From Halovivax asiaticus JCM 14624 (GTDB lineage Archaea > Halobacteriota > Halobacteria > Halobacteriales > Natrialbaceae): a stretch of 64,000 nt of DNA. Positions 38,755 to 64,000 of this stretch are shown here, piece after piece; the stretch's first letter is position 1, and each line of letters starts with the position of its first letter. The DNA lies in assembly GCF_000337515.1 (NCBI RefSeq), contig NZ_AOIQ01000014.1:294903-358902 (forward strand). Reading direction: 5' to 3'. A program made the position numbers and the translations under genes. A model generated the notes under the pieces. That model did no database searches and was not told where the DNA came from. It saw only the letters and a program-made list of their open reading frames with translations.

Positions 38755-40220
38755 TTGACATCCTCCCCGCCCTGAAGGGCGAGGATTCCCGAGCGTTGGG
38801 ATATTACGGTTCGCAACCCGCCTGTTCGCTCGGTGCGAAACGCCCCGAGGTTTGATTGAACAGGTAGGCTACTGGCCGTGCCAAACGGCCGTTACTCATA
38901 TCCTCGGTTGGAGGATTCTGAGTTATCTTTCTGCGAATGTTCACCGCACCATTCACGTCTGCGTTCATCGTCGCACCGCACGACTTACAGACGTACAGGC
39001 CACGCTCCACACGATTCGCGTCACGCTTCCGACCACAACACGAGCACGTCTTCGACGTGTCTCGCTCGTCCTTTCGGTCAACGAGGATGCCGTGTTCCTC
39101 CGCCTTGTATTCGAGCAGACTGGTGAAGCGGTCGAACTCCCACCCGTGGAGCTTCTTGTTCCCACTACGCCCCCAGTTGCGAGAGTCGCCGTTCGCATCC
39201 GCTCGAATCTCCCTCAAGTCACCGATTGCGATACGACCAATCCCGTGGTCGATACACCGCTCAACGATGTGTTTGGTGAGAGAGTGCAGGAAATGGTCTT
39301 TCCGACGCGAGAGTTTCTGTCGGGTACGAAGGGCACGGCGGGAGGGGCCGTTCTCGCCTTCGGTATCGTACTCGTCTCGCGTGTAGTAGTGCTTGTCCTG
39401 TTTCAGCACGTTCCCCGGATACAACGCAGCGTTACCATCATCGTAAGCGATCGCGAGGTAGTTGCTAATCCCGAGGTCGATGCCCGCCGTATTATCACCG
39501 GGTGCGTCCTCGACGGCGATTTTGACGTTGCAGACGAGGTGGAGTTCCCAGCGGTTGCCGTTCCACACGGCTCTGACCTGCTGGATATTCTCCACGGTCA
39601 CGTCGGGCCGAGTTTCGTACTCCGCGAGGATGAAGTCTGAACGGTGCTGTTTGAGGTTGAAACCCTTACTCAGGCGGAGTTGACTGTGCTTAGAATCGTG
39701 TTTGATGCCCATTTGCTTCCACGTCACGGTGGAACGTGGATGGGTGTCACCTCGCTTGCGGTAGCCAGGCGGATTCGCGTCTGTGTCACCGTTCTTGCGC
39801 TTTTTGAACCAACCGTTGAACGCCTCAGCGAGTTCTTCGAGAACACGCTGACTTGACTGCGAATGCAGGTCACTATAGCGTTCGTGATCTTTTAATTCGC
39901 GCTTGAGGTCGTCTTCAGACGGAATCTCGCCGGTATCGTCCCACTCTTGTTGGGTGTGGTAGCGGGCGACGTTCCACAGTTTCGATGCTGAGTGCCCGCA
40001 CTCGTCGAGGTCGTCACTCACTTGGGTGTGGTTGACGATTTTCGCTCGATAGGTCCGGGTTGTCTCCAGCATCGAACTGTGCTCATAAGTACTTATTAAT
40101 ATAGGAATATTAAAAGTAACGACTGGGCGTGGAATATCCGGCGAAGCTATCGAGCGTGGGTAGGGTAGGGCCTGTCGGCTGTATCCTCGCCCTTTGGGGC
40201 GAGGTTTTAGCCTCGCAAAT
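38755..40220 (-). mobile_element. IS200/IS605-type element carrying only tnpB (IS1341-like)
   Basis: The element is bounded by hairpins. At the tnpB 3' side, CCTCCCCGCCCTGAAGGGCGAGG is centred on about 38773; at the 5' side, CCTCGCCC, TTTG and GGGCGAGG lie near 40185-40204. Exact ends are not resolved. No Y1 transposase (TnpA) gene is present, so movement would need one in trans. The 3' hairpin region is where the guide RNA of TnpB systems would end. The element sits between the 38181 gene and fni and disrupts no visible gene. Confidence 0.8.
38804..40072 (-). CDS. tnpB: TnpB, RuvC-like RNA-guided nuclease, active-site Glu replaced
   Basis: The protein has 422 residues from ATG 40072 (MLETTRTYRAKIVNHTQVSD); longer upstream frames run into the element's end hairpin. 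Asp199 in AGIDLGISN and Asp372 in MNADVNGAVNIRR are the first and last RuvC residues. The zinc ribbon is Cys343/346 and Cys362/365. In the middle motif RIAIGDLREIR the position normally held by Glu (as in IVVEDL) is Gly284. Other haloarchaeal TnpBs may share this form, so it could be lineage-specific, with Glu287 taking over, or the nuclease could be weak or inactive. Confidence 0.92.
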   Translation of the reverse strand: MLETTRTYRAKIVNHTQVSDDLDECGHSASKLWNVARYHTQQEWDDTGEIPSEDDLKRELKDHERYSDLHSQSSQRVLEELAEAFNGWFKKRKNGDTDANPPGYRKRGDTHPRSTVTWKQMGIKHDSKHSQLRLSKGFNLKQHRSDFILAEYETRPDVTVENIQQVRAVWNGNRWELHLVCNVKIAVEDAPGDNTAGIDLGISNYLAIAYDDGNAALYPGNVLKQDKHYYTRDEYDTEGENGPSRRALRTRQKLSRRKDHFLHSLTKHIVERCIDHGIGRIAIGDLREIRADANGDSRNWGRSGNKKLHGWEFDRFTSLLEYKAEEHGILVDRKDERDTSKTCSCCGRKRDANRVERGLYVCKSCGATMNADVNGAVNIRRKITQNPPTEDMSNGRLARPVAYLFNQTSGRFAPSEQAGCEP

Positions 40221-61886: not shown

Positions 61887-61937
61887 CCGGTGTCGGTACG
61901 GAATCGGTTTCGCCGGCCGACGTTCCACGCACCCATA

Positions 61938-61948
61938 ACTATATATTA
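61938..61948 (+). promoter_or_regulatory. Strong TATA-like box before a structured leader
   Basis: ACTATATATTATT spans 61938-61950. An archaeal start 25-30 nt downstream would fall at about 61968-61974, directly at the first base of the long stem at 61971. Confidence 0.65.
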
Positions 61949-61970
61949 TTCCACACCTAACGCGAGAACG

Positions 61971-62067
61971 GAAGCCACGTCCTCCATGGCACGCGCGGGG
62001 ACATGCGCCGTGTAAATGTCCCGGGTGGGATCAGCACCCGAGACGTGGCTTCTCCCTCATACGAGGG
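61971..62067 (+). ncRNA. Candidate structured RNA or cis-regulatory leader
   Basis: GAAGCCACGTC (61971-61981) pairs perfectly with GACGTGGCTTC (62042-62052). Inside, GGGACAT (61998-62004) pairs with ATGTCCC (62016-62022), and directly after it GGGTG (62023-62027) pairs with CACCC (62035-62039). So an 11-bp helix closes two adjacent hairpins. Next, CCCTC (62054-62058) pairs with GAGGG (62063-62067), which is Shine-Dalgarno-like and 14 nt before ATG 62082. The layout resembles an aptamer plus a ribosome-site-masking hairpin. It is not a tRNA: no T-loop or acceptor pattern. No known riboswitch family was recognised. Confidence 0.5.
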
Positions 62068-62081
62068 CACCGATAGAAGCC

Positions 62082-62222
62082 ATGCTTAGAGATTCACCAT
62101 CGAGACAAAAAGCTCTCGCACACCTGTGGTATCGTCAGCCGAAGCACTACCCCGAATTCGTCTGGGATTCGAAACTCGTCGAGGATCTGGTTCTCAGGTT
62201 CGGCACTCTGAAGGTGAACTGA
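62082..62222 (+). CDS. Small hypothetical protein after the structured leader
   Basis: The protein has 46 residues from ATG 62082 (MLRDSPSRQKALAHLWYRQP). An ATG at 62016 is in frame but lies inside the predicted RNA stem, so the later start is preferred. The sequence is rich in aromatic and basic residues and ends VEDLVLRFGTLKVN. No family is recognised. It is followed after 1 nt by the zinc-ribbon gene, so the two are coupled. Confidence 0.5.
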   Translation: MLRDSPSRQKALAHLWYRQPKHYPEFVWDSKLVEDLVLRFGTLKVN

Positions 62223-62223
62223 G

Positions 62224-62451
62224 ATGGGCCGCTACGACTACGACGAGCCGGAGCCGGACGAGCCGTGTCCGCGCTGTGGGCAGGATCTGGAGCAGACGGA
62301 CTGGGCCAAACTGCGGGCTGTCCACGACGGGCCGTCCGCTGCTGGGTATCGAGATTCGGAGAAGCGGATGTGCGTGGACTGCCTGGCAGCGCTCGGGATG
62401 CTAGAGTTCGAGATGAACGGTGTGTCTGGGGGTGGACAGAGATCGGTGTGA
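62224..62451 (+). CDS. Small zinc-ribbon protein
   Basis: The protein has 75 residues. DEPCPRCGQDLEQ and MCVDCLAALGML give two CxxC knuckles about 36 residues apart, a zinc ribbon. The N-terminus MGRYDYDEPEPDEP is acidic. Such short ribbons occur in haloarchaeal proviruses and integrated elements as well as chromosomes. It starts 1 nt after the preceding stop. Confidence 0.68.
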   Translation: MGRYDYDEPEPDEPCPRCGQDLEQTDWAKLRAVHDGPSAAGYRDSEKRMCVDCLAALGMLEFEMNGVSGGGQRSV

Positions 62452-62737
62452 GGGTGGCATGTAAGTGGGGGACTTGCCTAGTACTGTTCTGCAGTTGAGT
62501 TGGCCGTGATCAAGACAATGTAAATTTTGCCTTTCTAATGTGGCTGGCGTTTGTTTTTTTATGTACAGTATAGATGGCTGTAATTTCGACCTGATCCCAT
62601 CCTAGGGGTCTCAATCTACTGTCTCTCGTGAACACGGAGATCCTGGTGATGTGTTCATTCAGTGGAAAGCAGAGTTGTTAAGCCACGATCACTGGGGTTG
62701 AGCAATCACGATTTCCACTATTCGGACGCACCCACAT
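62452..62737. other. Transition to AT-rich DNA, no gene
   Basis: Base composition falls sharply after about 62460. T-runs (for example GTTTTTTT near 62550) may terminate transcription from the zinc-ribbon gene. No integrase, direct repeat or tRNA end was recognised at the border. Confidence 0.5.
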
Positions 62738-63589
62738 TCATAATAAGAGGGTTTTAATAAGCACCGAATATACATATGTCGAAATAATCGCAGAGAGAAG
62801 AAAATAAAACAAGAATTGGTACACTCTCTTACGATAATCTTCTCTAAGTAGAATTTCTTTAATCAAATATTTATTTATGATATAATATGATTCGATGGGA
62901 TTCTCTACATGGTTGATCAACTTCCCAATAATCACAACAGTGTTTTTGGCCATTATATATGTGAGTAGAACTATCCATAGAGTCTCGAAAATGGAGAATA
63001 TTTGCCCGGATTCGAGCTCAACGAGGGCAGAGCCTACTGAGGAGCGTGTATACCAGTTCAAAATTAATTCAACAATAGATCCGAAACTATCGAAGGGGAC
63101 TGATGGATCAAAACCCTCCGCATTTGTGATATTTGAAAAAATGTTCCGGAGCAAATCACGGGACAATGCCCAGATCAACCAAAATATAAAAGCAATAATA
63201 ATTATTGATACTGCTCGATAGCTTTGCTTGCTGATTCTACACACTGTCTCGAATTCCAAATTTTCCTCAACAGTGTAGAAATCCGTTTTCACAGAACTTG
63301 TAGTTATAGAATCCAGTGAAATGCGTATCAATACCAGAACCACTCTTATGAGATAGTATATAAAAAATGTGGTGCTTGTAAGGGCCATCACTGCAAAAAC
63401 GAACGGGATTATTGGAACAGAATAGGACCCCTGTATAACATATGCAAAAGCAAGCAAGAACAAGGAGATGATTGTGAATAAGGATGGAATTCCTAAAAGG
63501 AAACAAAATGTCCTCATTTTTGCTACATACTCATCGAGCAGTCTATCTACCGCATTAATCAATTCCGGGTCGATTTGTGCTCCTGGCAT
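62738..63589 (-). CDS. Unrecognised multi-helix membrane protein in AT-rich DNA
   Basis: The protein has 283 residues. Six or so hydrophobic segments (FCFLLGIPSLFTIISLFLLA, IIPFVFAVMALTSTTFFIYY, VSIIIIAFIFWLIWALSRDL, IFETLWIVLLTYIMAKNTVV and FLFYFLLSAIISTYVYSVLI) alternate with charged loops. Ile, Phe, Tyr and Asn are common, unlike the acidic GC-coded proteins elsewhere in the window; one 60-nt line inside the gene (62881) is 35% GC. This suggests acquisition from another source. No function can be assigned. Confidence 0.75.
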   Translation of the reverse strand: MPGAQIDPELINAVDRLLDEYVAKMRTFCFLLGIPSLFTIISLFLLAFAYVIQGSYSVPIIPFVFAVMALTSTTFFIYYLIRVVLVLIRISLDSITTSSVKTDFYTVEENLEFETVCRISKQSYRAVSIIIIAFIFWLIWALSRDLLRNIFSNITNAEGFDPSVPFDSFGSIVELILNWYTRSSVGSALVELESGQIFSIFETLWIVLLTYIMAKNTVVIIGKLINHVENPIESYYIINKYLIKEILLREDYRKRVYQFLFYFLLSAIISTYVYSVLIKTLLL

Positions 63590-64000
63590 AGATTCTAAGA
63601 AAATAGTCTATACTCGATTGGAGCGAAATGTGTAATCGATTTAGATATATCTGTCTATCCCAGTATCCTCGATACCGAGATTTGTTTAGCAATGTTCTCT
63701 GCCACCACTCGCTTGCCTCTCCAGTTCCTCTAATTGTTCCTCGATCTCTATCAGATGACACTCGTGAGCTAGCAAAATCGAAATATGGTGGTCATCTTCG
63801 GATTATGATGTTTCTGCAACATCCCAGCGCCAGAGCGGTTACGAATATGATCGAAAAGGCGCCTGAACTGATACTGATGCTGTGTACGGAGTGCTAGATG
63901 ATACATCGACCACTATTTTCGACTGCTTCCACTGGAGTATGCAGTGCGGAGTGAGTCGGTGTGGTGTAATTTTTTTGGCGTTGTCCCCTAGGGACCCGCT
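63590..64000. other. AT-rich tail of window, no supported gene
   Basis: Short frames at 63555-63761 (-) and 63628-63897 (+) overlap each other, and neither is recognised. A run of seven T at about 63970-63976 could be a terminator. Any gene continuing to the right is not visible. Confidence 0.45.

Follow-up and report, generated by a model that had tools for sequence, protein, structure and literature searches.

A multicopy leader RNA of Natrialbaceae that looks like a switch at the start codon of small haloarchaeal genes

Few structured cis-regulatory RNAs of haloarchaea appear to have been described. One of the closest known systems is found in the halovirus PhiH1, annotated from mapped transcripts: its early-lytic transcript T1 has a 151-nt leader, and the 5' end of an antisense RNA, T(ant), lies 1 nt ahead of the first ORF. 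Through T(ant), T1 becomes accessible to cleavage close to this ORF (PMC4284463). Haloarchaea are reported to work without Shine-Dalgarno use at 5'UTRs (Kramer 2014, as cited in PMC6728339), and termination-reinitiation was strict in 9 of 9 overlapping gene pairs of Haloferax (PMC6728339). The leader described here, from a 64,000-nucleotide stretch of Halovivax asiaticus DNA (the window), belongs to a family of hundreds of copies, each behind its own promoter, across Natrialbaceae and some of their viruses. Judged from sequence comparison, it appears to represent a class of RNA switch not described before, by which the start of a small gene is opened or closed. The features of the locus are as follows.

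61933-61945, + strand: promoter, BRE/TATA (CCATAACTATATA); family consensus CAGTAG.TATAWG at -35 to -23
61968-61971, + strand: predicted transcription start at the first P1 bases, from TATA spacing
61971-61981, + strand: P1 5' strand (GAAGCCACGTC), backed by folding and both alignments
61993-62008, + strand: GCGC and GCGC around the P2 5' strand, perhaps a pseudoknot or another hairpin, not shared by the whole leader family
61998-62004, + strand: P2 5' strand, backed by the alignments
62016-62022, + strand: P2 3' strand, with a conserved AAA just before it, backed by the alignments
62023-62039, + strand: P3, near-invariant stem GGGUG/CACCC with a variable 7-nt loop at 62028-62034 (GGATCAG)
62042-62052, + strand: P1 3' strand (GACGTGGCTTC), the proposed switching strand
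62054-62067, + strand: P4 hairpin CCCTC-ATAC-GAGGG, from folding and copy comparison
62076-62084, + strand: GAAGCC plus AUG; 9 bp with 62044-62052 are possible, giving a second helix in which the start codon would be hidden
62082-62222, + strand: ORF1, 46 aa; N-terminal codons conserved, tail sequence-neutral and open to ORF2
62101-62118, + strand: P5 inverted repeat CGAGA-CAAAAAGC-TCTCG inside ORF1, covarying in the family
62107-62111, - strand: AAAAA box at +25 to +29 of ORF1, candidate antisense TATA with a predicted antisense start near 62082
62224-62451, + strand: ORF2, 75 aa, CxRC...CVDCLAALGMLEF, putative zinc-binding microprotein

The leader spans 61968-62053 of the window on the + strand. 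P1 (61971-61981/62042-62052) has 11 bp, P2 (61998-62004/62016-62022) 7 bp and an 11-nt loop, P3 (62023-62027/62035-62039) 5 bp and a 7-nt loop, and P4 (62054-62058/62063-62067) 5 bp; the ATG of ORF1 lies at 62082. These helices and loops, the promoter and the ATG were all found where a preliminary description had placed them. As a single sequence the leader folds at -51.7 kcal/mol (z -2.8; equalled by 2 of 200 shuffles). The minimum-energy fold gives the P2 region another pairing, and the comparative alignment backs the P2 described earlier.

No covariance model of Rfam 15 matched 61938-62082 at the gathering threshold; the best match (E 0.36) was on the other strand and at chance level. Elsewhere in the window, 38764-38928 on the - strand matches RF02656 (sot0042, a sense overlapping transcript; gathering score 88) with 96.2 bits. 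The leader belongs to a multicopy family of RNAs that Rfam does not list. Blastn against its own genome retrieved 18 copies, 11 of which were used to build the covariance model R1. This model matches 28 places in the same genome; each of four congeners has 25-33 matches, and in other Natrialbaceae genera the number reaches 29. The window copy, itself one of the building sequences and drawn from copies found first by blastn, scores 83.3 bits (E 4e-17) and has the core P1, P2 and P3 with GAAAUGYCCCGGGUG..CACCCGAGACGUGGCUUC. In a class-wide sample (E <= 1e-5), the leader occurs in 58 of 101 Natrialbaceae genomes, a total taken from the genome list of the class-wide pattern search, and in 2 of about 290 other haloarchaea. 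A DNA pattern of the core gave true members solely in Natrialbaceae within a named genome collection (Natrinema, Natrialba, Halopiger, Natronorubrum, Halostagnicola, Natrarchaeobius, Natronobiforma and other genera); the bacterial and viral matches of the first core pattern failed R1 and were rejected as chance.

Comparison of the copies supports the three core helices. In the R1-based alignment of 101 copies, 94.7% of the cells are paired, against 92.3% in shuffles and 24-52% when slid, and 67 cells have both sides changed, against 17.8 in shuffles (reached by 0 of 500). A sequence-only alignment gives 89.9% against 87.0% paired, and 89 against 31.5 double-change cells; R2, one of three RNA models, was built without structure and serves as an unbiased aligner. 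Chance folding of a single copy is excluded by the own-genome copies together with this excess of double changes over shuffles. Homologs with compensatory changes, proposed earlier as a check, exist for P1, P2 and P3. P2 pairs swap G-C for A-U in 28-29 copies. It occurs in a long form, with CGC/GCG around the 5' strand and a pseudoknot possible, and in a short form with a GAAA loop; a universal P2 pseudoknot was rejected, just 48% of its cells being paired in the sequence-only alignment. P3 combines a near-invariant stem with a loop of 6-7 nt that differs from copy to copy, and P4 is a small hairpin of free sequence.

The promoter is fixed as well. CAGTAG.TATAWG stands at -35 to -23 before ACGGAAG in 150 copies, and transcription is therefore expected from the first P1 bases; this spacing agrees with an earlier prediction of a start near 61971, placing it at about 61968-61971. 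Copy contexts are varied and common ends were not found, so a transposon or MITE was rejected. Some copies occupy shared sites across genera (rpS15/recJ, RNase J/GGPP synthase). An eCIS_core (PF13699) gene adjoins about 18 of 154 copies (among them L077-L086, L225 and L241 of Natronobiforma, L021 and L133 of the genome studied here, L057, L062 and L123). In Natronobiforma, the upstream 780 bp are common to many leader copies. Tandem leader pairs occur at L193 and L107, spaced about 0.5 kb and 1.7 kb, and a defence-system library search gave no match.

The relation of P1 to the start codon suggests what the fold may do. The P1 3' strand, GUGGCUUC, is complementary both to the 5'-end GGAAGCC and to the start-codon sequence GAAGCCAUG, and a conserved second copy of the P1 5' strand stands directly before AUG (GAAGCC-AUG). 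Across the family the sequence before the start codon is RAAGCC, TTGCC or CACC. ACC before AUG is found in 6 of 6 copies with GGU in the P1 3' strand (Fisher p about 1e-6), four of these six showing GGUUUC with AAACC, and one C less before AUG is found in 6 of 7 copies with one G less against 6 of 144 others (p about 4e-7); the copies with concerted changes span several genera yet are related, and those within a genus are not independent. Own start pairings also bind better than swapped ones (-10.72 against -10.25 kcal/mol; 0 of 2000 permutations). Overall, 83.4% of the cells of the start pairing are paired, against 31-53% when slid, a figure for which column shuffles do not separate pairing from conservation; some copies (GTCACC, GTTGCC) retain CCAUG alone. 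A switch between P1 and the start pairing is likely, as the concerted changes support it.

The explanation preferred here, held with evenly balanced confidence, is that the leader may act in cis as a translational switch, with a relationship to haloviruses and probably an antisense RNA as its partner. We infer that the leader switches, which of its states is ON and which OFF, that the genes of this locus are coupled, and that an antisense RNA takes part. The RNA would start at the first P1 bases. In the ON state P1 would form between the 5' end and 62042-62052, leaving the ORF1 start codon free; in the OFF state the P1 3' strand would pair with GAAGCCAUG, extending P4 into one long stem in which the start codon is hidden. 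Folding makes P1 more stable than the start-codon helix by a median of 5.9 kcal/mol (3.3 in the window copy); P1 being energetically favoured, an outside factor would be needed to switch. The earlier claim of a new structured regulatory leader, in which promoter, folded domain and small coupled genes line up, gained support. The ribosome site once proposed to be masked by P4 did not hold up: the 3' arm of P4 varies freely (GGGUUU, AUUUG, GCUUG, CCUG and others) and a GAGG-like Shine-Dalgarno sequence is not kept. The start codon is the likelier masked element, because the copy of the P1 5' strand is conserved right before AUG.

A ligand-binding riboswitch could use the same strands. P1, P2 and P3 would then form an aptamer in which a metabolite or ion closes P1 and frees the start codon, and the copies, up to 33, would make one regulon answering one signal. 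The three-helix junction, the near-invariant P3 stem, the conserved GAAA and CCCGAGAC fit such an aptamer, as do the P1 3' strand in the role of switching strand and the presence of the same core ahead of many paralogous genes. This explanation is nevertheless unlikely: the genes downstream are those of small Cys-rich proteins, a PadR-like regulator and viral operons rather than metabolic or transport genes, the junction tolerates both the long and the short form of P2, and similarity to riboswitches of Rfam was not found.

The two ORFs behind the leader are under different constraint. The N-terminus of ORF1 is conserved across the family as MFRKTPSRQKGLAR or MIAYILPGYKRPAR and its tail is free; past codon 15 the changes by codon position are 100:122:112, that is, no detectable protein constraint, against 168:140:371 in ORF2, where the protein is constrained. 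Of 117 copies, 57 have the stop of ORF1's own frame at the ORF2 start; the two other frames stop there in 8 and 5. Lacking codon-position bias and yet reaching the start of ORF2, ORF1 therefore seems to be a carrier frame for ribosomes. In three copies (L127, L132, L133) it continues in frame, and in L127 and L133 a Cys-rich motif lies in that same frame. An ORF1 kept open to ORF2 without protein constraint fits translational coupling, and in the preferred reading ribosomes would reach ORF2 through ORF1 and make the small Cys-rich protein by termination-reinitiation. In L012, a copy of the same genome (G000 C8:192554-192635), an extra base in the P5 loop frameshifts ORF1 to 17 codons while the leader and the P5 stem are kept. 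In a subgroup from Halopiger and Natrinema (L057-L062, L065, L137, L203, L230) the conserved ORF1 is longer (MIAYPLPRHKRLARHSVRS...) and an ORF2 could not be recognised.

ORF2 was found independently in 117 of 152 copies as a small four-cysteine protein of dissimilar types. C15, C18, C50 and C53 are invariant in 18 ORF2 proteins of under about 100 aa, in two C(P)XCG-like motifs. Searches of Pfam and NCBIfam gave no match and the PDB sequences no convincing one; the predicted fold, a low-confidence model (pLDDT 66), has no significant fold match in the PDB. Many of the chromosomal microprotein genes behind the leader are unannotated. As the usual neighbour of the leader and a protein under constraint, ORF2 might itself be the regulator: a zinc-finger ORF2 protein, or a shared host protein, would bind the repeated GGAAGCC or P3 and repress its own translation. 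GAAGCC does occur twice per leader, and small haloarchaeal zinc-finger proteins such as Brz act as regulators (PMC2253796). Such autoregulation is quite unlikely, however, in that one leader core stands before dissimilar ORF2 types (CxxC...CxDC and CPxCG...PCGC) and about a fifth of the copies are without a recognisable ORF2.

P5 lies within codons 6-13 of ORF1 and covaries at amino-acid-changing positions (AGA..CTC in 79 copies, GGN..CCC in 36, mixed in 1). Its centre, WWAAA at +25 to +29, is A/T in 97-100% of 150 copies at a fixed distance from the start codon. A TATA box would lie just there if an antisense RNA began at the start codon. Such an antisense partner is a good hypothesis; a lysine codon or an RNA hairpin would be other reasons for the A/T box. 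In the preferred reading, the signal that turns the switch would most likely be antisense RNA from this box, as with T(ant) on PhiH1 T1. Another reading is that P5 serves solely as an RNA hairpin, or as the DNA operator of a dimeric repressor, that antisense RNA plays no part and that the switch answers temperature, salt or transcription speed alone. The covariation of the P5 stems where amino acids change, and their retention with new sequence in the viral relatives, speak for this reading. It is very unlikely, however: the A/T centre sits at a fixed, promoter-fitting distance from the start codon, and PhiH1 has such an antisense RNA. Pairing of P5 with GAGAC of the P1/P3 junction was rejected; P5 becomes GGGAT/GTCCC where the junction keeps GAGAC.

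Viral and distant relatives were retrieved with a pattern of the switch alone, GTGGCTTCC-N8-30-AAGCCATG, which matched 51 of 392 Halobacteria genomes; the reversed control gave few matches. It retrieved L275-L278 in other families, as well as a group in Natrinema that stands ahead of a PadR-like protein. Among 181 viral matches, 3 hold once P1 and P3 are required (L344, L346 and L365, on halovirus contigs), and a further viral pattern added no members. At L346 and L365 the leader is preceded by a winged-helix gene on the opposite strand and followed by small Cys-rich genes, with integrase and Cdc6-like genes nearby. The viral relatives keep P5 with a different stem sequence. A protein behind the leader in Natrinema falls into phrog_4278, as does the first T1 gene of both PhiH1 and PhiCh1. 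Blastn of the window leader and two viral relatives against phages found nothing.

The suggestion that the site was possibly acquired stands in part. The copy lies where GC drops from about 0.66-0.73 to 0.36, and its family includes relatives in viruses; the leader, by contrast, is rich in GC. Right behind the operon, at 62500-64000 of the window, GC drops from about 0.7 to 0.36-0.45, and a 283-aa hydrophobic ORF (62738-63589, - strand) lies in this low-GC stretch.

The variable P3 loops allow the preferred reading to be extended. The genome studied here has 21 different P3 loops among 22 copies on an invariant stem, and YUNR or its complement occurs in 56 of 108 distinct loops, against 33.8 in shuffles. 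Pairing of the loop with its own mRNA was rejected, own pairs being no better than swapped ones. In the preferred reading P3 would be the landing site of the antisense RNA. Tentatively, a portable viral sense/antisense switch may have spread to as many as 33 chromosomal copies per genome in Natrialbaceae, the P3 loops serving as addresses, with dozens of copy-specific, antisense-controlled microprotein genes. The start-codon switch is testable, as reporters exist in Haloferax, and it raises a testable question about translation control in organisms without Shine-Dalgarno use at 5'UTRs. The family also links microprotein genes on chromosomes with a halovirus lysis control region and, if true, the switch would give a structural reading for the classical, little-explained T(ant) antisense of PhiH1.

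CopA/CopT is a copy-specific antisense RNA system with U-turn (YUNR) loops. The leader family resembles it in the variable loop on a constant stem and in the enrichment of P3 loops for YUNR or its complement; the antisense partner of the leader and the contact site at P3 are, unlike those of CopA/CopT, proposals from sequence. With translational riboswitches the leader shares a three-helix domain at the very 5' end; its P1 3' strand would likewise be the switching strand, and the start region the alternative partner. In contrast to them, no ligand is known, the start codon rather than a Shine-Dalgarno sequence would be masked, and ORF1 lies between the switch and ORF2. ORF2 is like the C(P)XCG zinc-finger microproteins of Haloferax volcanii in size, four cysteines and acidity (PMC11241148, PMC6562870), and differs from them in having no Pfam or NCBIfam match and in sitting behind this leader in the copies studied. 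PhiH1 T1 and PhiCh1 have no detectable sequence similarity to the family and an unrelated P1 sequence; their leader occurs once in each virus, whereas the family reaches 33 copies in a genome, and the published accounts consulted give no structural switch. The likeness is one of architecture alone. In both viral leaders the 5' end pairs near the leader end (GAGCAGG/CCUGCUC in PhiH1, GAGCAAGCG/CGCUUGCUC in PhiCh1), and a second GAGC directly ahead of AUG allows the same P1 strand to reach the start codon. Small CxxC genes lie downstream, with phrog_4278 common in one case, and the antisense start of T(ant) at the start codon is matched in position by the candidate A/T box of the leader family.
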